Source: Chrysoperla carnea (Eukaryota; Arthropoda; Insecta; Neuroptera; Chrysopidae). Taken from it: a stretch of 64,000 nucleotides of DNA. The notes beneath the pieces were generated by a model. It was not told the DNA's origin, did no database searches, and saw only the letters and a list, made by a program, of their open reading frames with translations. Position 1 is the first letter of the stretch. The number at the start of each line of letters is the position of its first letter. This document shows, piece after piece, positions 1 to 64,000 of the stretch. The stretch covers positions 16,066,001 through 16,130,000 of the forward strand of contig NC_058339.1 in NCBI RefSeq assembly GCF_905475395.1. Reading direction: 5' to 3'. A program made the position numbers and the translations under genes.

Positions 1-180
1 CAAAACAAGTGAAAAATTGCAAATTGATACACTTCATTTTTTTTTTTTGTATTTTTGCAAATTTTTATCGTTTAATCGCGGTATCACGGAGATATCTTTA
101 CCACAGATATCGTTATCGAACTTACAAATCAATTGATAAAGAAAAATTCGTAATTATTATAAAATTATATGATTCCCTAG

Positions 181-3100
181 ATGGTCGAACCGTTTGCGGT
201 AGAAGAGCACGAGTTGAAATGTCTAATGGAAAAAGTGGTGGTGGAGGTCGTTACCGTGGTCCTCCACCAAGATCACGTGGTCGACCATTTCATCCAGATG
301 ATAGATGCTATGAATGTGGAGATCGTGGACATTATGCAAGAGATTGTACTCGACATCGTAAAGGTGGAAGCGGTCGTCGAAGGTAAGTTATGTTGAATGA
401 TGTAATCCATTTGCTTCCACTTCAAATTCTACTAAAAACAGATGTTTTACATTTACAACTGATGAAATCTCCTACCACTTTATAAGGGCAATTTTTGAAT
501 CGTATTTATAATTTTATTTCTTGTTAACAAATAGTTATTTTTTACCTAGAGGTTAAATAACTCCATTTTTTTAAAATAAAATTTGCCCTTAAAATACTAA
601 AGAACTGGGCAAAACATTTATTATAAAATTTAAATTTGCGATCAATGATTTAAATAATTTTTTAACTAGGATTCTGATTTTGTGATCGAATCCCGAGCAT
701 GAAAATTTGTTAATTTATTTACCATAATAAGTCATCGGCCGTGTCAAGTTCGGTTGTTTTTATTATTGGAATAATAAAATGCCAAATGTTTGTGGCTGAT
801 ACGATGATCTGTAAATTATCTACCAAGGCTTGATAAATTTATTAGTTTTGATATCGTGAAATGATGGTAGTAAGTGGTCGCCTTTTTTTGTTCAATAGCA
901 TTCGGAAAAATATTTTCAGCCAATAACTGCCAATTTTATTAAAAACTACTTATTTTCCCCCATAAATCGATCACTTATTAAAAGCTACGGTAAATTTAAT
1001 AAATTTTCATTTTATACCTCGATAACTCGATAATTTTTACTTTTAATTACCGTTTAACTCCAATGAATTCCAAGAAAATAATATAACATAAAACTTATAT
1101 CTCTGATTTTTGAGATTTACATTTTAATGAAATTATTTAAAAATAAATATTTGCCTACTTCTTTCAAAAATATACAACAAGAGCGGTGTTAAAATAATCT
1201 TGAAAGATACTAAAAACGTAATTTAAAAAATCATGACGTGTTCACATTGATTTTGCTACAAAGCATCGTTTTATAGGTATTTTTTGAGATGAGAGAGCGC
1301 CGATCAGATTCAAAAGGTAATCAATTCTCATAGATCACACATTCCACTCGTCGTCTTGATGTGTGAAACGCACGCATTCAATCACTGACACACACAAATG
1401 TGAGTTCCAACAACTAAAGAAAGAAATTCACATGTATGGTATGTATAATCAGATGGTCTACGTAGACTCTTCGCAGACGATTTACTGTGTACTCTACGAC
1501 GATGACTTTCAAGTTCAATATGGCCTCCTCTCCTACGACTACTCTACTACTTGCGTACTTCCGACGACGTGTTAAAGAGAGACTGCTAGCTACTTCTCCT
1601 TGTACCTCTAGACCGTAGTATTTCGTCGTCTTCACGTCAGTTCTACTGTCAATTCTACTAATAGTGTGTCATTTGCAAAACAAAACACAAAATGCAGTAA
1701 GATTTATAGTAATTTGAAAATAATATATTTTTTAATTTTTTATTAACAAATTAAATCATTCATTCGTTTGTTTGAATGTATGTATCACTTTGAAAAGTTT
1801 TAAGTTCAATTTGAAAACATTATCAAATTTAAGATTTAACATTTTGTATAAGTTCGTTTGGAGATTGGAGGCTTACTCCTCGACATTCGAATACTACAAT
1901 TATTTAGTAATAAGACTCGCGGCATTGATTTTACAAAACATGATTAAAGCGACGTCTCTTGGTAATCATATTCATTAGATCCAAAAACATTTTATGGAAC
2001 AAGTTGCCACTCGCTGCTATTGAGGTATGAGTGGAGTTATAATGTCCCTTATTATACCTTTACACACATTATGCTCAGAAATGGAACAGCCAACTACAAG
2101 ATAACTCGTAGAAAGAATCTGTAAACTGTAAGTAAGTTTGGGACTTAATTAGTATGTGCTGCCAAGGGGTATTTCTTAATTATATTTTACTAAGACCATT
2201 GCCATAAGCGTCTAACTAAAGTAATTGTGATTTTATTTATAATTCAGTATTAGATACTTCTAATTACTAAGATTAAAGAAAATTTTGTGATTTTAATCCT
2301 GTTATTTGGCTCTTAAAAACATGATGCTGTTCTCAAATTGAATGTATCCATATTGAATTATCTGCATAAATGCTGAAAGCGTAATGAATATTTCCAACAA
2401 TTTTAGTTGTTTCCAGAATATAACCACAGATTTGAATTAAAATTAAAGTAATAAGTTTTTCCGTGATAATTATTCGTAGGTCCTAAATAAATAAAAAGAT
2501 TTGAACTCGGTAAAAGAAACACATTTTCTTTGGTATTCTTGAATGTTTTTCCAATCAAAAATCAGAAAAAAAGGAATTGATCAAATCAATTTTATTTTAG
2601 TTCCATAAATTTAATACAGGGTGGGCCAATTTTATTTTAGTTCCATAATTTTAATCTATTATGGCTGTGACTCGTTTAGACTATTAAAAAAACCCGAAGA
2701 ACTAGGCATCAAATTGGACGTACCTGATGTCAGAACATGATTTGATTTATTAACTACAAAACGAGATATTAGCCATTTTAGATTAAAATGCCCCACTCTG
2801 TATACAACTATATAGCCAGCAGAGAAAGAGGTTTAATGAAATAATTAAAGTGCAGATGATCGTTTCTCTCTCGCACAGTTTATTCTGCGCATGCGTTGTC
2901 ACATCATGAAGGTCGTGCTCATTGTGAATGACAATAGACCTTTTCATTTTAAGAAATGATTCTTTTTTGATTCGGGCAGTGCTGTTTGACAAAGAGGGGA
3001 AATATTTGTTATCTTTACTTCTATGGTATTTGACAATTGTCCGAAATAAAAGCGAATCGGTGAAAAAGGTGTATAAACAATGGAACGCTGGCTATATAAA

Positions 3101-5670: not shown

Positions 5671-6110
5671 AGGGCATTTAAAAATTTCTAAAACAGAAAT
5701 TCATTTTTTTATACGGACGTGACAATAAAATACGGGCTTGTCAAATTTATTGACATACTGTATGATATTAATTATTTATATTTTATATGGTATTTCATTA
5801 AATTATACTATTCTACTGCTTTTTATTAGAAAACTTAATAATAACGAGTGTAAATTCTGTGTTGTCAATTCATTTTTTTAAAGTGTAAATTATACATTGA
5901 ACTGTCACCAATTGACAGATCACGTGCTTATACGTCATCAACAGAGAGTGCCAGAAAACTGTGTTTAAATATCTCAAAATTATAATGTATTTTAAATATT
6001 TTTTTACTCTTAAATACAGCATTTTTAAGCAGTATTTATATTTTTTACTTTGTTATAACGGTGTAAATAATGAATTAAAAATATAAAAAAATACATGAAT
6101 ATTCCCTATT
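5671..6110 (-). mobile_element. Truncated copy of the AATAGGGAATATT MITE family
   Basis: The right end is GAATATTCCCTATT, the reverse of the family's left terminus. The interior matches the element at 18261-18793 in inverted orientation, including the block GTTATAACGGTGTAAATAATG. The match stops near AGGGCATTTA (5671), so the other terminus is missing. Confidence 0.6.
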
Positions 6111-7825
6111 GGCAGGTATACTAACTGCATTCTTTTTAAAAGTATTATTCATTTTTACTGTGCAGTATTTTGTGAAAGTTTTCATTTAATTCTCGCGTGT
6201 CGAGTTAGTCGGATAAATAAAATCGAGACTCAAAGAAAACCAAGAAAAATTTGCGATTAACAAAAAATAGATCGGCCTAATCACTTAGACGTACAAAGCA
6301 GAACTTGTTAACACTTGAATGTTGAAATTTTTTCCTGATAATAATTTGTAACTTCAGTAAAGTTTTCGTTTCTAAAAGGTCACCTCATTTAAAACATAAA
6401 TTTTAAATTAGTTGAATTTCTCTTCCGCAAATAGGTTTTTAAACAATGATTTCATTCCCATGATATGTAGAACGCTCCCTATTTATATTCCATTTTAAAC
6501 TGTACACACATACCAAATACCAAAACAAATACATAAAAATATTGTCAAATGTAAACGTCAACATTAAAGTTATATATTTGTATATAAAAAATTATTTTAA
6601 AAATAATAATAACACGTAATATAAACAATAATTGATTGCATTCAGTATTGATGCAAGCAAACTTAATTTAAAACTTAGTATATTAGTTAATTTTATTTAA
6701 GTTGTAAGTATTCTACTATCAATTATTTAGTTCAGAACCATATTGTTTAATAAGTTTACAAACAAATTTTGACTTTTCTTCTTTGGGATCAGGACAATTT
6801 TATAATATATTTTTGGTATTTAAATTCAAAAATTATTATAAAATTATGTAAGTACTAGAAATAATCTCGTCAATCGATTTGTATTTATAAATAATTCTAG
6901 TGATTATCTGAATGACCCTGATAACAAGTATCTCTTTTTTTTTTTGCATACGTATGAAAGTAATAACATTTTTAACAAAAATTTAACACAAAGATTGATC
7001 AATTGACAAAATTTCTGTTTGATAAATATAATTTTTGCCCATGATTTAACTCGATCGAATTGATAATCAATGGGCCTATGATCCAAGAAAATTAAATCGC
7101 ATTTAAAATGATTTATTTATTGACTTAAAATATAGATAAAGCACTTAGGATTATAAAAATGTTCTACATAGATCGAATTTGTACCAAGCGGTTAATTGCT
7201 AACCGTTGCGGTTTTTATTAAATAATTCGAAAATCGTGGTTTTTTACAACTTCAAATTCAGATCAATTTCAATACATGGGATCCTCTATCTATATGTTAT
7301 ATACAGAATGTTCGATTTACATCTAGGCATATAAATATCACGAGTATGACAGAATACATGCGTTAAGCAATGCATCTAAGTGAGATACATATATGATACA
7401 CTGTTGGAAGATTTTTCGATGTAGCAACTTATCGAATATTCGATATTAGGCCAATATAGAGACTTTTATAAATCGATTCATCTTTCGGTTCAGGCCCTCC
7501 AAGCTTTTCCTTGTGCAACTGTTTATCGACTGATATTTTACCACTGTCCCAGCTATAACTTATTAATGACCAGTCGAAAAATTCACAGTCATTTCAATGC
7601 TGTGAGTCCCCGCAATTACACTTAGCGATTTATCTAAATTTTAAGTCTGTAGTAAATTATTTTACGGTTAGTAATGCTTATTCTTGGATTAATGTAATTT
7701 CTACACAGAGTTCGGGATACATCTGAAAGGGTTGTTTTTCGAAACTATGTACCTTTATTTAACATAAATAATATTAACTGTACAAAATAATTGATTGTAG
7801 ATAACTAAATAATATTGTCATAATT

Positions 7826-10343
7826 ATGTCGGACGATGATGGATCCGCTATGGATTTATGTGAATGCGTTTGGGGCCATGAAATGGCAATGAGACGTTTA
7901 TTGTCTTTAGTAAGTTTGATTCCTATATAATTCGTACCACAAGAGATTAATGTTCAGATACGAATGTGACCTACTTTGAAATAATCATTTGTGGTACAAA
8001 ACTGATTACATGATCGTATATAATTTTATTTATAACTGATTCATGATTGTAGCTGCGGCAATCTCAATCTCTTTGCACGGACACAGAATGTTTCAATCGT
8101 AAGTATAAATAATTAACTATTATACGGAGTGAGCCAAAAATCTCTTTCCAATTTAAAAAAACTAATTATTGTACAGCTACTAATTGCCTTAAACATTTTA
8201 TCTTGATTTGATAATTAAAATTTGCAGCTACATCTCAGCAACAACAATTAAATAATAACAATGCAGACGCCAACTTATTGATGATAAGTTTAATGATTGT
8301 TTTCGCTCTTGCATTGTATTTATTACGACCACGATCAATAACCAATTCCAATACTGATCATATAAAAAAACCTTCAAATCCCAATTCTGAATTTGGACCG
8401 GTAAGTTTCCTTTTTATACAAATTATAATTCACTATTAATTTTAAATTTGCATTTATATTAAGGTAGTTTGTTTGTTATCCATAACATTTAGTCAAATCA
8501 GCAACAATTTCTTTCAAAAAAAACTAACTAAACATTGAAGTTTTTGTTCTGAGTTAAAAAAATAATAAACTCTTAATTATTGACCGTTTCATTATTATGA
8601 CCGTGTAATTACTCAAAGTTGATCAAGTTCTAGTATTGGTAGTTGAAGAAAGAAATCTTTTTTAACAGAGACTTTATTAGGATAATACAAAACATTTATT
8701 AAGGTTAAAAATAACACATTTTTTTACTTCAATGCATGTATATTATTACCGTGCATATAGTCCAAAACATGTTTTTTATATTTTTTACAATATTTTACGG
8801 AGCCAACACCCTTAAATTTTACAATATTTTACGGAGCCAACACCCTTAAATGTACTAATTTTTCAGTACACAGTTGGTATATTTCATAGATATAATATTA
8901 TCTCTATGGTATATTTTAAACTTATTGCAGCATAGCCAATATCTAAAATATACAAACAAAAAATCACTAGATATATTTATTTAGTAACATAACATTACGT
9001 TGTATTGTGGTTATATGTCAAATATATGCCAAGCTGATAAAATATTTTTAAAACAATTTTATAAAATTCAAAAGTAATTTTTTTAATTCTTATCCAAGGT
9101 ATGATGTGGCATATTGTAATTAATTAATTATATTAATGCGTCTTTTTTTAAATTATATTAATTGAATACGTAATAAATTAAAAAGTTTTTATTTACCTAC
9201 ATTATTATTAAAATTGACTTAATCAAGTATTAGTTATACAACCAAATTTTCTTTAATATTTTGTAAAAGTGCGACTAAATCATTGACTACCCATGTATGT
9301 TCATTAGATGTTATTTAAATTAAGATGATATGACAAATAATCAAAGAAGCCGGCGATTTCATCCTAATATCTCATTTAGAATTTCATCTTAATGTCTCAA
9401 TTATTCTGTGTTTTTTTTTTTTAAGTGTTTAAATATTTGAGACTTACTTTTCAAATTTTGAGGGTGCATTCTATTAGAACTTGGGAAAATTAAACGAAAA
9501 TAAAGAGTAAAATTTTATAATATGCACCGTAGTTTTTGAAATGTTGATGTCTAAACATTTAGAGAAATTCACTTATAGAAGAAATAAGACACATTTTCCA
9601 TTCTTTTCATCACTTTAAATGTATTTTATAGAAAAACCGTCTTTATAATTTTCTTTATAGAGAAATATTTTTCATGTTTTTAACTAATGAATATTAGTTT
9701 TCCACATTAATTTTAAGAAAACTGACCTTATTACATAATAAATCATACCTTCAAAAACACTTCAATATAGGATTTACATGTCAGGTTAGGTTAGAGTGGC
9801 TGTCCTGGGGTGAGACACACTTAGACTATAGGGTCCGTTGTGATACCGTTAATGGGTTGGCCCATCCTCGCCCACTACTCCATGAACCATTTAGAGCTGT
9901 TTAAGAACAGCAGGAGGGCTTTGACGTCGACTGACTTTAGGTCGGAGAGGTCGTCAAAGAGAGGCTGGCTCAAGTAAGTCCACCTCCTCATGACAAGAGC
10001 TGGGCAGTGACAGAGAAGATGAGACATTGTCTCCTCCTCGTCACCACTGGGACAGCCCCTACAGTAATCGTGATACACTGCCAGGCCTAAGCGTTCAGCA
10101 TGCCTGCCGCCCAGCCAATGTCCTGTGATAGCCGCAATTAACATTACATGTTAAAAACGCAAACTTTAACAGCTCAAATCTAAAAAAAGCTAGTCCTAAT
10201 AAAGTGTAATTTTTTGGGACCGTCTTTAAGTACAAAATTTACTTTACTCGAAATTGTTATTAAAAATTGTATTAATTTAATATTTTTAGGATCCAAACGG
10301 ACCATCATCACCACCTCCTCCGCCACCATCAAGTACATTTTGA
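7826..10343 (+). CDS. SMIM14: Small integral membrane protein 14
   Basis: This is a conserved small membrane protein placed in the endoplasmic reticulum in vertebrates; its molecular role is not established. There are four exons with matching phases: 7826-7909, 8053-8098, 8228-8400 and 10290-10343. They give 118 residues, against about 99 in human. The N-terminus carries the family signature CECVWGHEMAMRRLLSLLRQ followed by SQSLCTDTECFN. A hydrophobic segment (LLMISLMIVFALALYLL) forms the single membrane span, followed by a polar tail and a Pro-rich end (PPPPPPSS). The start is the first ATG, in the expected frame before the conserved CEC motif. Intron 3 (1.9 kb) contains a 34-bp tandem duplication and a LINE tail. 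AATAAA signals follow within about 20-40 bases of the stop. Confidence 0.93.
8783..8850. repeat. Perfect 2 x 34-bp tandem duplication
   Basis: The 34-base unit starting TTTTACAATATTTTACGG is present at 8783-8816 and again at 8817-8850 with no visible difference. It lies in SMIM14 intron 3 and suggests a recent slippage duplication. Confidence 0.9.
9782..10143 (-). mobile_element. 5'-truncated LINE tail (RNase H-bearing Jockey/I/R1 group)
   Basis: On the minus strand a frame from 10143 to 9875 encodes GHWLGGRHAERLGL, then CRGC and EEETMSHLLCHCPAL. This is the C-terminal RNase H and zinc-binding tail of an I/Jockey/R1-group retrotransposon. It ends in a TAACCTAACCTG-rich 3' end. The insert is flanked by an 8-bp target duplication, TTACATGT, at 9774-9781 and 10144-10151. 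It is more GC-rich than its surroundings and still open in frame, so it is fairly young. It sits in SMIM14 intron 3 opposite to the gene. Confidence 0.85.
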
Positions 10344-18260: not shown

Positions 18261-18793
18261 AATAGGGAATATTTATGTATTTTTTTTATATTTTTAATTC
18301 ATTGTTTACACCGTTATAACAAAGTAAAAAATATAAATACTGCTTATAAATGTTGTATTTAAGTGTAACAAAATATTTACACTTAATACATTATAATTTT
18401 GAGATATTTAAACGCAGTTTTTTTGGCGCTCTCTGTTGATGACGTATAAGTACGTGATCTGTCAAATTTGACAGTTCAATGTATAATTTACACTTTAAAA
18501 AAATGAATTTACAACACAGAATTTACACTCGTTATTATTAAGTTTTCTAATAAAAAGCCGTAGAATAGTATAATTTAATCAAATATCATATAAAATGTAA
18601 GTAATTAATATCATACAGTATATCAACAAATTTGACAAGCCCGTACTATGATGTCACGTCCGTATAAAAGTTTGAATTTCCATTTTAGAAATTTTTAAAT
18701 GCCCTTATAATGGTTTAGTTGAAATGTCCAGCCATTAAAGTTACGGAAGAAAAATATTTGAACCAAATTTAAATTTCATGAATATTCCCTATT
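18261..18793. mobile_element. Longest copy of the AATAGGGAATATT MITE family
   Basis: The element begins AATAGGGAATATTTATG and ends CATGAATATTCCCTATT, a terminal inverted repeat of about 17 bases. Its 533-bp interior includes ACACCGTTATAACAAAG and GTTACGGAAGAAAAAT, both also present in the copy at 63479-63657. The copy at 5671-6110 is inverted and truncated. There is no coding capacity. It sits in the shared upstream region of ZCCHC8 and MORN3. The target duplication is not clear. Confidence 0.75.
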
Positions 18794-28227: not shown

Positions 28228-28640
28228 TACTAGCAAATAACCGCCCGCTCTGCTGGGCAATTCAATCACGCTATAGCCCTCACTTATCCTCCCTTTTGTT
28301 CACAATTTTATGGATTTTAATTTTTTGTTTTAAGTTTTGCCCATGATACTCACTTACCATTACTCGCTGATAAATGTTAAGTATCAGGTGGTACAAATTG
28401 GAACTACTCAAAAAGCGGTCTACTTCCTTTTTAATAGTACAAATTTTTATCGCCAGTTGGCGGAATTTATCTGATTTGAATATCTTTATTGGTCTTAAAA
28501 AATTGTAAGTACAAGTATATCCATCTGGTAGTCCAAATTTTAACTACTGAATTCGGGTCTTCTTCTGATTTTAATCAGTACGTATTACTTTTGCCAGTTG
28601 GCGAGTTGCAACTCCCAGTTATCAATAGGTAAAATCATTA
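28228..28640. mobile_element. Uncharacterised transposon-like sequence leading into the satellite
   Basis: It begins with CTAGCAAATAACCGCCCGCTC, a start of the 'ACTAGC..CCGCCC' kind often seen in dispersed insect repeats. It contains two spaced copies of GCCAGTTGGCG (near 28453 and 28595). It runs directly into the tandem array at 28641. The family cannot be named. Confidence 0.3.
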
Positions 28641-29333
28641 AATTAACCTGATTTTTATACTTTTTGGATCAAAATTACCCCATCCACTAAGTTTCATCAA
28701 ATTCCAATACAAAATTTTTTTTCCGATTTTCTCGATTTTTTCAAAGGGGTACCCCTTAAAAAATTGCAAAAAATCGAAACATTTTTTTAATCTCCAATTT
28801 CGATAAAACTCAGTTTATAAGGTAATTTTGACCCAAAAAGTACAAAAATCAGGTGCATTTGTTGACTGGTTCAATATTTTTTGAGATACGGACTAAAATC
28901 GATCCAAATATTGCGATATTTCAGAAACCTTGCATCCAATCAATAAATTAACCTGATTTTTATACTTTTTGGATCAAAATTACCCCGTCCACTAAGTTTC
29001 ATCAAATTCCAAAACAAAATTTTTTTTCCCGATTTTCTCGATTTTTTCAAAGGGGTACCCCTTAAAAAAATTGCAAAAAATCGAAACATTTTTTTAATCT
29101 CCAATTTCGATAAAATTCAGTTTATAAGGTAATTTTGACCCAAAAAGTACAAAAATCGGGTGCATTTTTTGACTGATCGAATAGTTTTTGAGATACGGAC
29201 TAAAATCGATCGAATAATTGGGAAATCTCAGAAACTCTGCATCGAATCATAAAATTACCAAGATTTTTATACTTTTTGGATCAAAATTAACCCATCCACC
29301 GAGTATCATCAAATTCCAAAACAAAATTTTTTT
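28641..29333. repeat. Tandem array, about 2.3 copies of a ~305-bp dyad unit
   Basis: AATTAACCTGATTTTTATAC recurs at 28641 and 28946, and in altered form at 29253. Each unit is itself an imperfect inverted repeat centred on AAGGGGTACCCCTT (28744-28757 in the first). The left arm CCTGATTTTTATACTTTTTG faces CAAAAAGTACAAAAATCAGG on the right. The third copy stops near 29333. There is no coding capacity. It is probably satellite-like DNA carried by a transposon, but the family is not named. Confidence 0.85.
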
Positions 29334-48956: not shown

Positions 48957-51900
48957 TTATTTTTCTGAAGATAAATTATATGTTTTTCGTTTTTTGTTAA
49001 AATGTGTTATACGATTTTCCAAACTTTCTAAAATGTAAAAGAATACCATTACATATATTTCCATTTTACTACACATCAAGTTCTATCGTAAATTAGGGCT
49101 TGCAATATTGAGTTGCCAATAAAATAATATGTTTTCTGTACAACATACTTACCACATGTTTTTCTTTGAAGCAAAGGCTGATATATTTTGGATTGACTTT
49201 CTTTAGCTAATAATAATTCATGCTGTTTATAAAGAGATTCGTTACTATCTGTCTCAGTATCTGTTGCTTTACAATAATTATTATATTGTTCTACTAAATC
49301 ATTTATCATTGTTTGAACCATGGATGCTCTAAAAATAATCTTGAAGTCAATTTTAATTTTACAAATAACGAGAAAAAAAATGGAAACAAATAGAAAATAC
49401 TAGTTGTTAACTTCGGAACAATCGTATCAGAGAGATGTTTAACTATGTAGTCTTTTAGACCGACAGCTACTACCATAAATATTGTGTCAATCGAATTGCG
49501 TATGCCATACTAGATTTTTATTATTTGAAAGTTACTGATAAATAATTGAGTTTGATTAAATCTCAACCTTGGGACCTAAGCGTAATATTTAATCTTCAAT
49601 CAAATTTTATCGCCAACCCATGTCAATGGGACATCTCTGAGAGAAACTTGGTGCGTATCAATCTAGTTTGCAATTTTTATAGTTTCAAGCGATATAGAGC
49701 ATTTTTTTTTTGTAGATCGTGTGCTTTACAAAATATTTCCAATAAAATTTTTGTTCTTCTTCCCCAAGTGTGGTACGTTGGCGCAGGTAGGCAATAAAAC
49801 GTGCCCTGAATTTTTGAATGAAATTATACTTTTATAAAACACACAATCCGTTTAAGAGAAAAGGTTTATATCGTCTAAAAACTGCAAGGTTCAAGCTATC
49901 GATTAATATAGGCCTCACGTTCATTCGTTCTCTGGCGTGTTACCTTTGCGCATTCAGTTAATTATTATTTCTCTATCCTGTTTTTAGCTACGGGTACCGT
50001 ACTGCGTAATTCCAAACGGATCGATCTAGTAAATTATAATCAACTAAACTTACTTAACAGCGTTTTCACACCAACTTTGTTGCAAACAACAAATGGAATG
50101 TTTCAATGCATCACTTTTATAAATCCATTGATTTTCATCAATATTGTATTGACAATTGTATAAATTTAATGGTAAATCTGATGCTAATACATATTGTGGT
50201 TTCTTTGGAACATAATCAACATTTAATAAATCTTTTATCACTTCTGGTTGTTCTTTTTCTTCTCCAATCAATAATAGTATAGACATTATACAACGTATTT
50301 GATGCCATACAAATGCTTTACCCGTTATTTTTAATACATACATATTATATGTACTATTTTTATTATTCTCATTTGATTCGTCAATAGAAATATCGATGAC
50401 ATTTCTTATGTACTCTGTTACACCATTTGCAACATCCAATTTACAAAAATTACGAAAATCATGTGTCCCTATGAAGAACTTACAAGCTTTTTGCATTGCC
50501 TGAAAATAATATGTTTATTTTGCTATGTTAGTTTAGTAATATCTAACAGTTATTGACGGATTTCAAAAAAAGTAAATTATCCTTTCACTTTTCAATTATC
50601 TGTTAAATTAAATTGCGTATTTATTAAATTGACTGGCTCTATAAAATAATTATATACATACTTCAATATTTAATTGTGATTTTGGAAAAAAATATTTATA
50701 TGTTCTAGATTCACAATCAAATCTTGCACTAAACTCTTCATTTTGTAATGGACACCAAGCAATACATTGTATTTGTTTTGGTAATACTTTATTCAATAAT
50801 TTACAATATTCGATTTCATCTTTTAATGATTCCTCGTTGTTTTGTTCATTCTTATCAAATTTACTTCGAACATTTATGGATATTACCTAAAACACATTTA
50901 AAAAAAATATATTTTTAACTTTTTATTATTAATATAAAGATATTTTGTTTTAAAGTTTAATCAACTTTGTTATTTAGCATTTTCCAACAAAGAATCTTCC
51001 AATCTACCTATCTACCAATAACTCCGTCATTAACGACCCTAGTTCGAATGAGTGAAAAAGAAGTTGCCTAATCTAAACTTTAAGGAGGTCATACCATTGA
51101 ATTCCATAATGCTGTGTAGGCAAGTAATATACCGGATATAGTAAGGTACCTCGAAACAAGGTATCTGGACTAGATGATAAGTTTTATCTTTTACATCACA
51201 GGATTCAATAAAAACCATCGACTTTAAAAGAAAAGCACGTAGTCTTAATTAAAAACGCATCCCCAAAATAAATCTATCCAATGAACGGGATCAAATTCTT
51301 CTCTTCGCGAATATATGAGTATGACGTTGCGATGCTTGCGCTCAACGAGTCGAATTTTGCGGCAGAGATAGAAACAACCATTTGCTGCCTCGCTTACGGT
51401 CTAATACTTCCACTTACGGGCGCTAGCAATATAGGAATGTATTAAATATAAAATGGTCTCAACTGCTTATCAGATGGATGAAGGTCGACCTTATACCGTC
51501 TCTTAGACTATTATATACAAAACGGTCAGGCCAACTGGAAAGATATATGATATCATTATTTACTACATAAATGTGGATTGAAGACAGAGGATGTATAGAT
51601 GTAGATTGGTGACATCATATCATGCCAATAGGGGTTTTAATCATGTCTTAAGCGCAAGCGCAGACTTCGTTTTTTCGTGCATGCAGTAATAAGTTAGACT
51701 ATGATAGAATATATTTGTTATTCATTTTATCATATTGGTTATCAATCATTGTGTACGAAACAAAAGTCAATCGCAATTTTATAATGAAAAGCCCTATTGG
51801 CATTCCGATTTCGGAACTAAAGCATCATTATTAAAACAAAATCTAACTCTATTATCTATGATTTAAACTTACTTGACAAAACGCACTAACACCTTTATCT

Positions 51901-53424
51901 GTCCGTCCACAACGATGATAATTTGATGAATTACGATCTTTGATTAAACATGTTTTAATTAAGGCATCAAATAAATAATGTTCAATTGTTTCCGTACTAT
52001 CTTCTTGGCATGCAAACCCTTTATAATCCCATCCTAGGTAATATAATTTTAATAATATATGTCTATAATGTGCTCTAAAAAAGTTTTTATCATGTTTATA
52101 AAGATTGGTCTAAAATTTAAACTCTATCTAGCGGTAGAAAAAAAACAAACTATATATGTTAACTAGATAATATTTAACGGAAATGTTGTTTACAATGTCG
52201 TATATTGCATACTATATACACATATATAAAATAGGTTAATGTAATAATTTTTGGCAACAAATTTGTCTAAAGAATTATATAAAATATTGAGATGGTTGAT
52301 TTTATTTTAAATTGGGTCATTATGCCATTTAAATATCGATGTGGTGTACCAATGTGCAAATCTTTAAATCCCGACTTAAGCTTTCATAAATTCTAAAAGT
52401 ATGGTGAGAAAGTAAAAAGCTTAAACGAAAGCAAGTTTAAAAACTTAAAATTTCAAAGTGTGTGTACCAGAGTTATTGTAACATCAATTATCTGTACTTA
52501 CATATGGTAACATATGTAAGTACAAATATGAAACATCTTTTGTCTTTTCATTCAATGAAAAAATCAACTGAGTCTAATAAATACCCAGTTCGCAACGTAA
52601 CCACCTTGTACGGGTCAACAGAATGAGACGAATGGATCATTGAGTGAGCAGATATAGGTTACAATAAACGGTCCTTCAACGACCAATCGAATGTACCGTC
52701 GAGTAAAATAATTGTTCGATCCTTAAATGGCCAATCTAGTTGCATCCACCATTATAAGTCCATTCAGAATGGACTAATAGGGCTTTTCATTTACAAAATG
52801 ATTCTTGATGACTGTTTTCAATCAAGTAAAGACATATCTTATATCTTCTATCCTTGTCAAAAAGCGCTGCTTGAAAAAGATAAAATATATTTAACTTTCT
52901 TAGATAGAATAGTTTTTTGACAACTGTCCGAAACAAAAGCCAAACGATGAAAAGGTCTATAGCGAACCCCACGTTTTGCTTACATTTTTTTGTTAACTCG
53001 TATTGCTGATGTTTTAGCGTTAAAATGTTTTTGTTGCATATAAAAACCGAATAAAACCTTTAATTTGTACGCAAGCTTTTGAACAGGTAATGTTTTTGGA
53101 AATATTGAAGTTTCATCATGCAAATAATTAAACATCAACGAAAAATTGAAAATCTTACTTAGAAAAATCAAAAGGCTTTTGACCTTTTTTGAAAAATGAT
53201 TCATTTTGACCGTTTGTAGAATTTTTATTGATAATATTTATTAATTGAGTATTGTGTGCATTTATTTGAATTATTTTATCAATTAATTCCTAAAACGAAA
53301 TGTTACAAATTACATCAATTTAAAATTAAAATAGATTAATTTTATCGCTTACATTTTTGCTTAATTTTTCTAACTCATCGCGTGTAATAGGTAATTTTTT
53401 TCTTTTTAAATCTAGCTTTTCCAT
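48957..53424 (-). CDS. PUS3: tRNA pseudouridine synthase 3 (Deg1 family)
   Basis: This enzyme converts uridine to pseudouridine at positions 38/39 of tRNA anticodon arms. Seven minus-strand exons join in phase: 53424-53353, 53289-53159, 52074-51873, 50886-50662, 50499-50054, 49328-49153 and 49027-48957. The product is 440 residues (human 481). The N-terminus (MEKLDLKRKKLPITRDELEK) leads to HILLKLYYLGWDYKGFACQE. The catalytic motif CGRTDKGVSAF places the nucleophile at Asp127 (human D118). Later blocks are FSARFDCESRTYKYFF, GTHDFRNFCKLD and GKAFVWHQIRCIM. The family-typical end YQPLLQRKTCESLENRI is split across the last two exons. MITE pieces sit in introns 2 and 3. A TTTATT at 48907-48912 gives an AATAAA after the stop. 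Confidence 0.95.
52776..52985. mobile_element. MITE piece in PUS3 intron 2 (AATAGGGCTTTT type)
   Basis: It starts AATAGGGCTTTTCATTTACA, like the copy at 34558. Its right half (TTTGACAACTGTCCGAAACA) resembles 3031-3050 in the SRSF7 intron. A short hairpin, AGTCCATTC-AG-AATGGACT, lies just before it. A related terminus in the other orientation is in intron 3 at 51787-51798. Borders are approximate. Confidence 0.45.
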
Positions 53425-54360
53425 ATTATTGTCTAATTATGAAACACGTGTAAAAATCAAATAAATTCAAAAAGAAATATGTGGCGAGTGCTTCATGACA
53501 CTCAAGTCATTTCACTATAGATGTGTAACACAAAGAGCATAGGGTAGAGGAGAAGCAGCCCATATGAGCTAATAGTCCCGGAGCTGACCGTAAGAACGCG
53601 AGCCGATCAGCGGTACGCATAAAATATATTTTCCCTACTACTACTAACCATAGTCAATAGGATGGGGCTTTAGTGCCTCAACGCAGTGGGCACATATAAC
53701 ATGGGTGCTTTCTTGAAAGTAAAATTTTTGTTGACGAACTGTACCAACTTTGTCCTGCTTGGTAATTACTTTAAAATCTTCTATTCATTGAATAGAACAA
53801 AATAATATTTAAGTGCCTCGACGCAACCGGTGATAACACGGTGGCACGGATTTTTCAATGAATTTTCCCGTGTGCACGAACTATACCCATTCCGATCCGC
53901 TTAAAACTTTAACCAAATGAAAATTTAAACAATTTTATATACAAAAAAAAATAAGTGCCTCATTAGTTGCGGTTCTATATGCCTGGCAGGACGCCTAACA
54001 TTTCGCGAGCTCCTATGCTACTATGTAGATAACTCTTCCGTCCGTCCGTCCGTCTGTGGTCACGATTACTCAAAAACGAAAAGAGATATCAAGCTGAAAT
54101 TTTTACAGCGTGCTTAGGACGTAAAAAGTGAGGTCAAGTTCGTAAATGAGCAACATGGGTCAATTGGGTCATGGGTCCGTAGTACCCATCTTGTAAACCG
54201 TTAGAGATAGAATGAAAGTTTAAATGTAAAAAATGTTCCTTACAAAAAAATAAACAACTTTTGTTTGAAACATTTTTTTGTAAACATCACTGTTTACCCA
54301 CGAGGGCGTTAATTAGGTACAAATTTTATAGTATGTATGTATTAATATAGGAATATCAAA

Positions 54361-54834
54361 GTGAATATCTTTTGTTATTTACATGACGTCAAAAAAAATC
54401 AATTTATGTCAACGTCTCTCACAGATTATTTTATTAAGAACATAAAAAAATTTGATTCTTCCCAGCTTCCACCATGTTGGAAGTCATTAAAGCAAAAAAT
54501 ATTGAGAACAATTTATGTCACCTCGATGTGGCAGAATGCTACAGTAGCGAACTGTCTTATTTGTTCACCAGAAGAATGTGGATGGATCAAAAATGAAAAT
54601 AGAATTGAACCACTTTGGTTCGAAGGTGCTCCAACGCCTCTTCTTGTTGAAGATATTGTTGCTGTCGAACTTGATGAAAATGTAGATAATGATAATGATA
54701 TTAATATAGATAATAATGATGAGTATGATCGTGAAGATTATGATCAGCATAATGATGATGACGAAAATATTGATGATAATGATAATGATGATAGTGATGA
54801 TGACGATGATCACAATAAGAATGATAATGTTTAA
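54361..54834 (+). CDS. Unrecognised 'SMW..GW..PLWFEG' protein in the left palindrome arm
   Basis: The open frame encodes up to 157 residues. It opens on GTG, so in a eukaryote it is either an exon of something longer or starts at the ATG of MSTSLTDYFIKN near 54409. Notable pieces are LPPCWKSLKQKI, YVTSMWQNATVANC, SPEECGWIKNENRIEPLWFEG and a long Asp/Asn-rich acidic tail. The W, GW and PLWFEG pattern recalls multicopy mobile-element proteins of arthropods. I cannot name a family. There is no catalytic motif I can identify. The same frame lies in the other arm. Confidence 0.45.
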   Translation: MNIFCYLHDVKKNQFMSTSLTDYFIKNIKKFDSSQLPPCWKSLKQKILRTIYVTSMWQNATVANCLICSPEECGWIKNENRIEPLWFEGAPTPLLVEDIVAVELDENVDNDNDINIDNNDEYDREDYDQHNDDDENIDDNDNDDSDDDDDHNKNDNV

Positions 54835-55113
54835 AAATATATTTTTGTAACTCGTATTTTATTAGGTAAATAGGTTTTTTATGAATTAATTTAAGTATAT
54901 TGCTAATAAGATTATACCTTTTTCTATTAATATAAATTAAGATTAGCCTGTGTACATTGTGTTAAATCAAGTAAGAAATGCTTAAATGACAAGTAATAGA
55001 TTATTGAAGTATTTATTCATCTTTCCCCATAAATCTCTACGATAATTGTGATCGAGAATCATTGGCCTTAGAAAAGGCGAAAATAGTTGTGATTGAAAAA
55101 ATGTAGCATTTAA

Positions 55114-55587
55114 TTAATAACAGAAATTTTTCGCCTTTTCTAAGGCCAATGATTCTCGATCATTATCATTATCATCAATATTTTCGTCATCATCATTATG
55201 CTGATCATAATCTTCACGATCATACTCATCATTATTATCTATATTAATATCATTATCATTATCTACATTTTCATCAAGTTCGACAGCAACAATATCTTCA
55301 ACAAGAAGAGGCGTTGGAGCACCTTCGAACCAAAGTGGTTCAATTCTATTTTCATTTTTGATCCATCCACATTCTTCTGGTGAACAAATAAGACAGTTCG
55401 CTACTGTAGCATTCTGCCACATCGAGGTGACATAAATTGTTCTCAATATTTTTTGCTTTAATGACTTCCAACATGGTGGAAGCTGGGAAGAATCAAATTT
55501 TTTTATGTTCTTAATAAAATAATCTGTGAGAGACGTTGACATAAATTGATTTTTTTTGACGTCATGTAAATAACAAAAGATATTCAC
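55114..55587 (-). CDS. Same protein in the right palindrome arm, with a different end
   Basis: The minus-strand frame is identical to the one at 54361 through the acidic tail (...DENIDDNDND). It then runs into the central hairpin and ends RESLALEKAKNFCY. The alternative ending comes from the junction of the inverted copy, not from a separate gene history. It is not an independent gene. Confidence 0.4.
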   Translation of the reverse strand: MNIFCYLHDVKKNQFMSTSLTDYFIKNIKKFDSSQLPPCWKSLKQKILRTIYVTSMWQNATVANCLICSPEECGWIKNENRIEPLWFEGAPTPLLVEDIVAVELDENVDNDNDINIDNNDEYDREDYDQHNDDDENIDDNDNDRESLALEKAKNFCY

Positions 55588-56808
55588 TTTGATATTCCTA
55601 TATTAATACATACATACTATAAAATTTGTACCTAATTAACGCCCTCGTGGGTAAACAGTGATGTTTACAAAAAAATGTTTCAAACAAAAGTTGTTTATTT
55701 TTTTGTAAGGAACATTTTTTACATTTAAACTTTCATTCTATCTCTAACGGTTTACAAGATGGGTACTACGGACCCATGACCCAATTGACCCATGTTGCTC
55801 ATTTACGAACTTGACCTCACTTTTTACGTCCTAAGCACGCTGTAAAAATTTCAGCTTGATATCTCTTTTCGTTTTTGAGTAATCGTGACCACAGACGGAC
55901 GGACGGACGGAAGAGTTATCTACATAGTAGCATAGGAGCTCGCGAAATGTTAGGCGTCCTGCCAGGCATATAGAACCGCAACTAATGAGGCACTTATTTT
56001 TTTTTGTATATAAAATTGTTTAAATTTTCATTTGGTTAAAGTTTTAAGCGGATCGGAATGGGTATAGTTCGTGCACACGGGAAAATTCATTGAAAAATCC
56101 GTGCCACCGTGTTATCACCGGTTGCGTCGAGGCACTTAAATATTATTTTGTTCTATTCAATGAATAGAAGATTTTAAAGTAATTACCAAGCAGGACAAAG
56201 TTGGTACAGTTCGTCAACAAAAATTTTACTTTCAAGAAAGCACCCATGTTATATGTGCCCACTGCGTTGAGGCACTAAAGCCCCATCCTATTGACTATGG
56301 TTAGTAGTAGTAGGGAAAATATATTTTATGCGTACCGCTGATCGGCTCGCGTTCTTACGGTCAGCTCCAGGACTATAATGTAAAATCGTAGTATACGAGT
56401 TTCAGCGCCTCTACCGAGTCAGGCTTTCAAACTTAATAGTTAATAGTCACCCCCGCAAAGTAGTTAAACTTAATAGTCATACCCGCAAAGGCCTACAAAC
56501 TTAATAGTTGATCGCCTCAGACTCCAGATGTCACTTATAATTATACTTCTGCTTCTTGTCTATCCTATAGTCTTTGGTGTAACACTCAAGTATGTGTAAC
56601 CACCTAGTGCCACCTTGTATATACCAAATAATAAAATTCAAGCTCAAAATGAACTTAAGCTTACAGTTAGTTTTAAATTGTTATATTTGCCTTAATAATG
56701 GCCTTGCCTACCTATTAAACCGTCTAAATAAGTTAATGTATGATTCATACATAAAATAATAGTATAACTATTACAATATCTTTGGTATGATCTTTCCTAT
56801 CGTTAGGT

Positions 56809-56839: not shown

Positions 56840-57467
56840 TTAAATCTCAACTCCATACTAATATATATTGGGCGCTAAGAACGTATTTACTTCGTTACAT
56901 TGGTATTTATTGATACTCTGCTCGGAACCAAAACTAAGCGTAATATAAAATCAAAAGTAAAGGAAATTTGAGGTACTTTCACATAAAACGAAGTATCACT
57001 CTCCAGTAACGGAATGTTGCATTATGCAATTAATGCGTATCGTAACATGTCCTATACTTGTCCATCTATACACATATAATACCTCTATGGTTTGACTTTT
57101 GACAATTTGACAGCCCGTGGTTTGAATTCTGTCAAAGTCAATCACGCGTCAATTGATTTAAATATTAAATTGTATTATTCATTTAAAAATATTTTGGATC
57201 GATTTAGATTTTTCTAGTAATAAACTATAAAAAAGATACCGCAATCACGTCCCTAGCACGTATAGCTCCTCTGTGTTCGAAATTTTCTGTTAAGAATAAA
57301 AATAAAATTTAACATAAAGCTAAAAGAGGAATTCGATATTAATTATTGAATCGTATGGATTTTATTATTATAACCAGGTATGACCAAGATTGATTCTTGA
57401 AATAAACTCAAAATGATTTAATAAATTTAAACACTTTTCCAGATAAAATAAATTCACAGTATCTAAA

Positions 57468-60400
57468 ATGCAATCAAGTGCGAGTGCACAACAATTATTA
57501 ATAGATCCAAATGTAGATTTTCCACCAGAATTACTAACAAAACCGCAAGCATTAATTGGATTTAGCGGCTTGGATACAGTAAATAATGCAATACATAAGA
57601 CAATATGGTGTGATTTTCGTACAAATGATAAAATGCAACGTGTTCCCGTTCAATATAAATTATTAAGTAATGCTCATGTATTTCCTGTAGTAAAACCAAA
57701 ACGTAATACATATGAATGGTATATACCAAAAGGTATTATCAAACGTAACTGGATGAATAAACATTTAAATCAAATACCAGCTGTAATTGTTATCTTTTAC
57801 GATATGGATTGGAATGATGTTAATTGGAATGAAAAGTTAATTGAATGTTCATCTAGAGTACAATCGATGAGGTAATCTTGTATTTTCTCTTTACTATATA
57901 TCAACTTTTTTTAAAGCTTTGTCTTAAAACAATAGAGAAGTTGACGTTGCCAGTGACGTCAACATATCGCTTTAGTAACGCCATCACACGGAGAAATGAT
58001 AAAATAACATAGTTTTATATGGAAACAAGCCGAGAAATGTGAATGTATTAATAATCCCCACCTTTTTTTATAAAACTAACTGAAGTTTCATTGTATATTA
58101 ATTTATTACAGAGCTGCCGTAAATGGTCGAAATATTCGTATAGTTGTGGTCTTAATACAACAAATAGCGCCACAAGTACCAGCTACAGATGATTTAATAG
58201 CTACTGATCGTGCTGCCATATTATGTTCAACTTGTGAAATAAGCTCAGAACATTTATTTATACTCCTGCCACATGACAACCATTTAATTGGGTAAGAAAA
58301 TGTGAAAAATTTAAATATTATCAAATGCATAAGCACTATAAGTATCTGAAATAAAGTTTCAAATCCGTCTCAATATCTTGTCAAACTTAATTGTTGTCAA
58401 AAGTATAAATATAAATAAAATTGTTGTACAATTTATTCTATGTGTCATCCAGGGGCGGATTTACGAATTTGCTGCCCATAGGCAGGCATCAAAGTGCCAC
58501 CTTTTTTATAAACAAAAATCTGTTTTATTTATTCGCCCCTGGTGTCATCCTTTGCATTATACTTTTCTTAAATGATTGTTATTTATTTGTAGATATATAT
58601 CACGATTAGAAAATGCATTTTATGATTTAGCTCAAACATATTATCAACAATTAACAAAAAATATAAAAACACATCGTGAACATTTAAATAAAACAATGCA
58701 TCAATCATTATACGTACGATATGAATTCAAAATGGGTTTCTTATCAGAATTAAAACAAGATTATCATACCTCACATAAACATTATACGTATGCATATAAT
58801 CATTTACAAGAGATACGTATTGTTGATACGAATGCATATGAAATTAAAACGATTGCTGGTTATATTAATTATAAATTATGTCGTATATTATTTACGTTAC
58901 GTTTACCACGTGATTCAATATCACAATTTAAAGCGCATATTGATTATTATAAATCACGTTCATTTGGTTTTAAACAATTACAATTTGAACATTATGCGTG
59001 GTTATCGAAACAGTTAAGTTTATTTTTTTAATTATTCCTTTTTTTATAGTTATCATTTCATAAATTCTCCTTTTTAACTCCTTTCTATTCGATTATAGTG
59101 TCCTAAAGTAGTTTAAATGATTACGTCGCAGTCAACTAGCTTAATTAGACGTTCAATTAACTGTCTTCTTACTAAACGGCACCGTTAAACTAGCGAGCGG
59201 AACGATATTCAGCTATTCAAATGACTTGAATCGATAATGTTTAACTACTTGCCTAGCCAAGTCATTTAAATTTAGTTGCACGTTTTACAAGGTGGCGCTT
59301 ATTTTAGTACTATATATTTCAATTATTTGTACTCCTAAATATTTGGCGATAATGTTACGAAATGACAACTTATAAAATTAAACATCTGATAAATTAAATG
59401 ATAATAGTTTGATTAAATGTAAAAAATTATTATGTAGATTTAGTACATTTGGTGATTTATTTTACGAAGTCATACATTTATTTCCTGTTGTTCAAACACA
59501 ACATCCTGGTTTTTATTATCAACAAGCTGCACATTACGCAAAATTACGTCAACAAGAAGTGTTTAAAATTTCTAAAAATTTAAATGTAACAGCAAGTCCA
59601 ACAACAAATTCAGCCAATTCTCCAACCATAAATGAATTTTATGGTCAAAGAACTTGGTGTAATAGGCCTGGTGAACAACCAATAGATCCATTAATTGAAC
59701 AAGAACATATTCAACAGTTACAATTACAAGAAATTAATACCATCAATCATTCAGTAAGTTCATTATCCTGGTATTTATAAGTACTAAATAATTTATAAAT
59801 GTTGTATATTTTTATTTTAGAATATAATTATAAATTTATATGGCTCAGCAATATTTCACTTTAAAGCAAATAAATGTCCACGTATGCGTACAGCTGTTGT
59901 TGTACAAATGGCTGATGAATATTGTTTAATAAAAGATTATGGTAAAGCGCTCACGTAAGTTTTTCATTTTTTATAGCATTATTTTCTAGGAAATAGTGTA
60001 CGAAGATGAAAAGTTACCATATACCAATTACTAATCGCAGAGAGTATATACAAACCAAAAATTTTCCTAAGACTGGCAGATATTATTTTCAAATATACCT
60101 CTACCAAATAATAAAAATTAAGACTATATCTAGTGAAATCTGGTTAAGTGAGATTTATTTATCCAGGTATAGATAAATATCTGTCTCATTTGCAGACGAT
60201 TCCATTAATAACAACATTTCTTCAACAAATTGCTTTGAAAACTATAACGTATCTTTTTTTAAAATTTTCCAACCATCCATTGCTGCTACAAAAATTATAA
60301 ATACCGAGCCCTCGCGCGAAATATTGTGCCTTTTCTTTAATCATCGGTCTACTTAGCGGTACGTTTTTGTTACGAAGTTGCTTGGCCTATGTTAGTAAAC

Positions 60401-63478: not shown

Positions 63479-63657
63479 AATAGGGAATATTCATATATTT
63501 TTTTTTATATTTTTAATTCATTGTTTACACCGTTATAACAAAGTAAAAAATATAAATACTGCTTAAAAATGCTGTATTTAAGTGTAAAATGTCCAGTCTT
63601 TAAAGTTACGGAAGAAAAATATTTGAACCAAATTTAAATTTCATGAATATTCCCTAT
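63479..63657. mobile_element. Internally deleted copy of the AATAGGGAATATT MITE
   Basis: It starts AATAGGGAATATTCATAT and ends CATGAATATTCCCTATT. The first about 100 and last about 75 bases match the 533-bp copy at 18261-18793 closely; the middle is missing. It lies in the last visible TRAPPC11 intron. Confidence 0.85.
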
Positions 63658-63720: not shown

Positions 63721-64000
63721 ATACCCTGTATATATGCATTATTTATCAAGGTATACTAAGTATAATCTCAAGTTTGTAACGCTTAAAAATATTGATGTTA
63801 CGAACAAAATTTTGTTATATTTGTTCATAAAATCACCTAATTAGTCCATTTCCGGTTGTCTATCCGTCTGTCTATGGACACGATAACACAAAAACGAAAA
63901 GAGGTATCAAGCAGAAATATTTATAGCGTGCTTAGAACGTAAAATGTGAGACTAAGTTCGTAAATGAGCAACATAGGACTTTGGATCCATAGAACTCATC
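63721..64000 (+). repeat. Dispersed repeat, both halves joined, running off the window
   Basis: It begins ACCCTGTATATATGCATTAT and carries ATCAAGGTATACTAAG. It then continues into GTCCATTTCCGGTTGTCTAT, CGTCTGTC and AACGAAAAGAGGTATCAAGC. The second half matches the arms of the giant palindrome (54031-54200 and its mirror). This copy shows that the two halves belong to one repeat. Confidence 0.75.

Follow-up and report, generated by a model that had tools for sequence, protein, structure and literature searches.

Foldback (FB), Tetris and Tm1 elements are characterised by very long inverted arms with little unique sequence in the middle. Tm1 is placed in a Mutator/Foldback family by the title of its description. 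Galileo, a member of the P superfamily in Drosophila, has long terminal inverted repeats (TIRs) of variable length and includes foldback-like copies (PMC4168063). That account also describes the recruitment of the final piece of the transposase open reading frame into both TIRs, with more than 500 bp in one copy, and a case in which another transposable element inserted in one TIR came to be in both; its section 10 proposes that aborted or template-switched gap repair gave rise to this structural variety (PMC4168063). In D. willistoni, Galileo has target duplications of 7-8 bp and a P-type transposase (PMC4168063). In maize, Mu killer is internally deleted, has both TIRs from the same end and carries a partial inverted duplication of the transposase gene, and is reported as a locus with genetic evidence for silencing a MULE (PMC3440606). 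Target duplications of 3-4 bp are given for AcademX, a lineage of the Academ superfamily (PMC10045372).

Here, a large palindrome is examined that lies in a 64-kb window, i.e. the whole stretch of 64,000 nucleotides analysed (C3:16066001-16130000 of a 559-Mb assembly). The palindrome is real. It is a recent insertion of a non-autonomous DNA transposon, the halves of which are inverted copies of one parent stretch. It is very probably a foldback-type, AcademX-like element of a young family with long TIRs and 3-bp target duplications, in which the palindrome formed once in an ancestor and then moved, the window copy being shortened later. The kind of element is already known, and its nearest parallels are Galileo and Mu killer of maize.

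Results

Extent of the element and its target site

The whole element comprises 2,803 bp, and its outline and surroundings are as follows.

53573-56375 (no strand): entire non-autonomous foldback transposon, with the tips TAGTCC(C/T)GGAGCTGACC at both ends, a TAA duplication and empty sites
53573-54789 (+): left arm, 1,217 bp, from inverted-repeat comparison
55159-56375 (-): right arm, 1,217 bp, one mismatch against the left arm, from inverted-repeat comparison
54790-55052 (+): 263 bp of the left half with no mirror in the right half, from comparison with sister copy L031; ATCA microhomology by eye
55049-55162 (no strand): palindrome centre, a 35-bp stem (55049-55083 / 55128-55162) with a 44-base loop; fusion point common to L031 and L032
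53570-53572 (no strand): target-site duplication TAA, left copy, from flank comparison
56376-56378 (no strand): target-site duplication TAA, right copy, from flank comparison
53530-53572 (+): left part of the target repeat, including one TAA, from flank matches and direct reading
56379-56576 (+): right part of the target repeat, from flank matches and direct reading

The arms make up 87% of the element and are separated by a spacer of 369 bp. Their single mismatch falls at arm position 7, and the longest perfect stretch is 1,210 bp; as a control, ten 64-kb sequences were simulated with an order-1 model, and their longest perfect inverted repeats measured 16-22 bp. In the sequence-only reading the arms had been given as exactly 1,218 bp. 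An inverted pair of that length with one mismatch does exist (53572-54789 / 55159-56376), but since the triplet TAA is duplicated at 53570-53572 and 56376-56378, the outermost A/T pair belongs to the target duplication, the element proper runs from 53573 to 56375 and its own arms are one base shorter. The smaller inner inverted repeat that had been noted, with a loop of about 43 bases, corresponds to the measured 35-bp stem and 44-base loop. The reported 263-base asymmetry likewise held when checked against a sister copy, although the junction is ATCA (4 bp, by eye) rather than a three-base GAT.

Both flanks of the window copy are parts of one dispersed repeat of approximately 241 bp. Uninserted copies of this target were chosen where left- and right-flank matches abut, from the best 40 non-self matches per flank of 331 and 211 candidates, and at least nine such places are present among the matches listed (C5:44905929, C2:82752258, C1:122259275, C1:31396490, C3:9158856, C4:58048973, C1:90951761, C1:65290222 and C1:100671303). 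Eight of the nine read as the last 32 left-flank bases of the window, a single TAA and then the right flank directly; the ninth has two differences, one of which makes the triplet TAT instead of TAA. An empty site was likewise found for the insertion of copy L040, in that case against the repeat termed unit365 below.

As judged by eye, the element sits between two divergent genes, with the 5' end of each facing it: PUS3 frames on the minus strand reach approximately position 52109, and on the plus strand a TRAPPC11-like frame begins at 57447. A Pfam scan of the four flanking frames matched the two outer frames and gave no match for the two nearest the element. The matches, PseudoU_synth_1 at 50053-50514 (-; E 1.8e-27) on the PUS3 side and Foie-gras_1, the TRAPPC11 domain, at 58576-59028 (+; E 5e-10) on the other, support the identities previously proposed for the neighbouring genes. 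Other repeats in the window include a stretch of about 395 bp duplicated directly in tandem at an offset of 305 bp (28633-29333; 92% identical), and a dispersed repeat seen as an inverted pair of 446 bp (5671-6110 and 18261-18705; 92% identical), with more pieces near 63479.

The family and the make-up of the arms

A search of the 559-Mb assembly with the outermost 28 bases, allowing up to three mismatches, returned 32 tips, against 0 in a reversed control, and these belong to 15 two-ended and 2 single-ended copies (17 in total). A search with the left half gave at least 60 matches (40 of 4,581 candidates scored). It had been suggested that copies occurring elsewhere only as single arms would argue against a foldback element, and this is not what was found, 15 of the 17 copies being two-ended. 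The terminal repeats of the copies are approximately 98-100% alike. Identical 3-bp flanks are present in 13 of the 15 two-ended copies, 12 of 14 in the main reading (TAA, TAT, ATA, ATC and CCG) together with L051 (TTA). Unlike the other two-ended copies, L031 and L043 have no 3-bp target duplication when their flanks are read directly; with ectopic recombination in mind, the triplets beside them were checked by eye against one another and against those of the single ends, and no reciprocal pair fitted.

The longest copy, L043, is 7.83 kb in length with TIRs of about 798 bp. Its long frames, one of 573 and one of 560 aa, are consecutive in the same reading frame and separated by a stop codon, and shorter frames of 115, 201 and 92 aa lie upstream. 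The neighbours of L043 are an integrase-like frame at 111-782 (+), with a weak rve match (E 0.00067) below the cut-off, and a frame at 8788-9666 (-) that appears DNA polymerase B-like by eye and has no Pfam match; the setting is as if L043, itself lacking a target duplication, had inserted into a Maverick/Polinton-like element. Copy L035 reaches 7.2 kb because of a nested non-LTR retrotransposon (RVT_1, E 1e-33), which occupies L035:2899-7058 and has frames of 435 and 964 aa, the latter with the RVT_1 and endonuclease matches.

Alignment to L043 as parent resolved each arm of the window copy into the TIR (positions 4-469), a foreign repeat of approximately 362-366 bp (unit365) and parent sequence from 6157 onward.

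53573-54038 (+): parent-family TIR (positions 4-469), left copy, 98.9% to L043
55910-56375 (-): parent-family TIR, right copy, from alignment to L043
54037-54402 (+): foreign dispersed repeat unit365 in the left arm; many other genomic places match this stretch alone
55546-55911 (-): foreign repeat unit365 in the right arm, from alignment
54395-55128 (+): transposase gene 3' end and downstream sequence, parent 6157-6890, 98.9% to L043
54394-54831 (+): last 146 transposase codons (residues 415-560 of the second L043 frame), 96% identity
55153-55554 (-): mirrored transposase end (residues 415-548), shortened by the 263-bp deletion, from translated comparison

By eye, unit365 and the transposase piece are joined at a short shared run of A. 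Both halves of L033, L034, L037, L038, L039, L040 and L035 carry the repeat at an identical TIR position, partly deleted in L040 and separated from the right TIR by the retrotransposon in L035, and its single position in seven copies indicates that it joined both TIRs early. It lies beside one TIR only in L041, and likewise in the single-ended L036, while the TIRs of L042, L043, L044 and L045 run past position 469 without it. A longer form of unit365 with a TCCG-rich start is present in L042. The repeat is abundant in the genome, and a diverged relative (87%) lies at 63863-63977 of the window.

Transposase and superfamily

No uninterrupted transposase of the palindrome's family was present among the candidates scored (78 of 491 in one search and 76 of 201 in another). 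Since the only full-length copy carries an in-frame stop, a source of transposase is assumed. A relative, L052, has one frame of 1,533 aa that is open across the region split in L043, and this relative was probably active recently. The related 1,533-aa frame is open with equal score at C3:8845463, C3:16663027, C6:10694308 and C6:10894834, one of which is approximately 0.5 Mb from the window.

Sequence and profile searches with the family proteins and their relatives gave a best Pfam or PDB match of E 0.13. The proteins have a conserved HEEADT...DTDVLI...TGCD pattern with a motif-level resemblance to the XPG nuclease core. An XPG_I search of the genome returned seven places, none at the transposase loci read, and hhalign of the transposase against a host EXO1-like protein gave a probability of 0.1%. 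The superfamily name is accordingly provisional, XPG or other catalytic homology not having been detected. The 3-bp duplications of 13 of the 15 two-ended copies suit AcademX, a provisional placement by duplication length. PIF/Harbinger elements are known only with the 3-bp target duplication TWA, and that superfamily was ruled out by duplications that include ATA, TAT, ATC and CCG. The P superfamily was ruled out by duplications of 3 bp as opposed to the 7-8 bp described for Galileo (PMC4168063).

A related long-TIR family with the termini TGG(T/A)(C/G)CAAGAGCTC is represented by 84 tips, reading TGGTCC at one end and TGGAGC at the other, and 3-bp duplications were seen by eye in both of the two copies read. 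In this family, L063:1253-3161 and L064:1376-3234 have only the 3' part of a transposase gene, flanked by TIRs of 502 and 587 bp, and 13 of the 14 C-terminal pieces listed for this family (ending at residue 559; 64-68% identical) are without a stop.

One centre at three sites

The fusion-point sequence occurs at exactly three places in the whole assembly at up to two mismatches, namely the window, L031 (on C1) and L032 (on C4), and at none in the control. An identical centre at exactly three places indicates that the palindrome arose once and then moved. L031 and L032, each 3,066 bp, are near-perfect palindromes from tip to tip; when compared with its own reverse complement, L031 shows differences confined to the central ~110 bases, and L032 shows them in the central ~110 bases and at eight other arm positions. 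Relative to these sisters, 263 bp are missing from one half of the window copy, with ATCA (4 bp, by eye) common to both ends of the deletion. In this way the central spacer grew from 44 to 369 bases, and the larger spacer probably stabilises the palindrome.

Arm-to-arm conversion

L031 has five derived changes on both arms (positions 585, 814, 836, 1008 and 1414) that are absent from the window copy and L032, and L032 has two (708 and 1305) that are absent from the window copy and L031. At 585, 708 and 814 ten other arms of the family retain the ancestral base, and at 836, 1008, 1305 and 1414 the L043 parent does so (the last two being columns 1309 and 1418 in that alignment). Polarity at 836 and 1008 was taken from the window copy, L032 and L043, the outgroup rows there being misaligned or absent. 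Non-homologous rows are aligned at 833 and 836, and for this reason the outgroup letters at these two positions differ from most or all of the palindrome arms. Since the junction is common to all three copies, the seven changes postdate it and would have been copied between arms, and at the level of sequence these both-arm changes point to arm-to-arm conversion. L032 still has eight differences confined to one arm and the window copy has one, and these nine unconverted positions indicate that homogenisation is incomplete. With a cut at position 500, which was chosen post hoc and divides few sites, all six differences below are unconverted, and above it three are unconverted and seven converted, too slight a basis for claiming that conversion weakens towards the tips. 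Arm identity had previously been ascribed either to a recent event or to gene conversion; both apply, the terminal repeats being so alike and conversion between arms being visible.

Formation of the palindromes and alternative explanations

Counting the window type, the 17 copies include at least four inverted duplications that differ in their centres. L044 has arms of 1,724 bp with six mismatches, derived from the element's left end, and a spacer of about 250 bases. In L038 and L039 the arms measure 1,051 and 1,033 bp, respectively, and flank a middle consisting of parent 6633-6960 in inverted orientation. L051 contains a 108-bp perfect palindrome from the first 54 TIR bases, centred on the 12-bp palindrome AAAATATATTTT (TIR 49-60), which, as the window sequence shows, the normal TIR already contains. 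At the centres of the window type and of L044 there are, by eye, 0-1 shared bases or a filler base, as in end joining. Inverted duplication, transposition, one-sided deletion and partial homogenisation have thus all taken place in this family.

Judging from the junctions, the palindrome may have formed when an internally deleted relative was excised and the resulting gap repaired. With identical TIRs, each of the two broken ends could have copied the same end of the template inward, through the TIR, the foreign repeat and the transposase end in that order and over slightly unequal distances; joining of the two copied ends would then have produced inverted copies around a short loop, and later movement would have relied on transposase supplied in trans.

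The sequence-only reading had offered three origins for the palindrome, i.e. a foldback transposon, a template-switch inverted duplication or an assembly error. Near-identical arms do commonly signal a false inverted duplication or chimeric join, but an artefact of this type is very unlikely: it would not be expected to yield a doubled TAA, empty sites and an identical centre at two further chromosomal places, the three loci each have private variants, and the 263-bp deletion is one-sided. The assembly-error option is therefore rejected on this indirect evidence. Local template switching in host DNA, unrelated to transposition, is known to yield palindromes with short spacers and microhomology. 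As the origin of the window locus it is scarcely conceivable, given that a 3-bp target duplication and a TIR present at 17 loci both coincide with the arm borders, and that the flanks are two halves of one interrupted repeat; a one-off duplication at this site is refuted by the empty sites. Template-switch inverted duplication thus survives for the palindrome's first formation within the family and fails for its arrival in the window, where the target duplication, the empty sites and the sister copies at other loci bear out the foldback transposon.

For that first formation, snap-back synthesis, in which a single strand folds during replication or repair and copies back to the tip without the need for two broken ends, is a credible though less favoured alternative to gap repair, and the transposon reading is unaffected by the choice. 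Its product would look the same as that of two-ended gap repair, and L051, centred on a self-complementary 12-mer of the normal TIR, fits it at least as well. However, the centre common to the window copy, L031 and L032 has at most one shared base and L044 has a filler base (by eye), and their spacers are 44 and ~250 nt, whereas inverted microhomology would usually remain after snap-back. With regard to the seven both-arm changes, they could feasibly reflect separate palindrome formations from slightly different single-ended parents, particularly since the family has palindromes with other centres (L044, L051 and L038/L039). This is improbable, however, since all three copies share a fusion point and 44-base loop seen nowhere else in the assembly at up to two mismatches. 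Conversion between the arms of a palindrome that formed once is the preferred reading.

Discussion

The main use of this family is as a clear case of transposons that become palindromes and keep their arms alike. Its 17 lightly mutated copies record several of the steps involved, from the parent through extension of the TIR by a foreign repeat, several inverted duplications and a palindrome at three sites to a later one-sided deletion, and the three palindrome copies enable inter-arm conversion to be counted directly.

It is conceivable, though rather unlikely, that this is an animal family with its own natural "killers", namely the palindromes. If so, transcripts across the window copy, L031 or L032 would fold into a long, near-perfect hairpin that includes the transposase 3' end and would feed the siRNA pathway; silencing would agree with the lack of any uninterrupted transposase of the window family among the candidates scored, and the hairpin would be kept almost perfect by arm-to-arm conversion. 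The family thus supplies a concrete candidate for Mu-killer-like self-silencing outside plants. Mu killer is the nearest parallel with respect to what an inverted fragment of a transposase gene can do. The likeness is that the window element, too, is internally deleted and has an inverted partial transposase gene between two copies of one TIR. The differences are that there are three mobile copies, in an animal genome, that the duplicated part is the gene's 3' end, and that the element is known here from DNA.

The very long inverted arms and small unique middle resemble those of FB, Tetris and Tm1. Galileo is the closest structural parallel, since long TIRs, with the transposase end and a foreign sequence in both of them, are found in both systems. 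In contrast to Galileo, the window family has 3-bp duplications and a long protein (frames of 573 and 560 aa) that gave no Pfam match, and some of its copies are palindromic over almost their whole length. A trait that the 2014 paper calls so far unique to Galileo (PMC4168063) is seen here, on comparison with the literature of that year, in elements with another duplication length.
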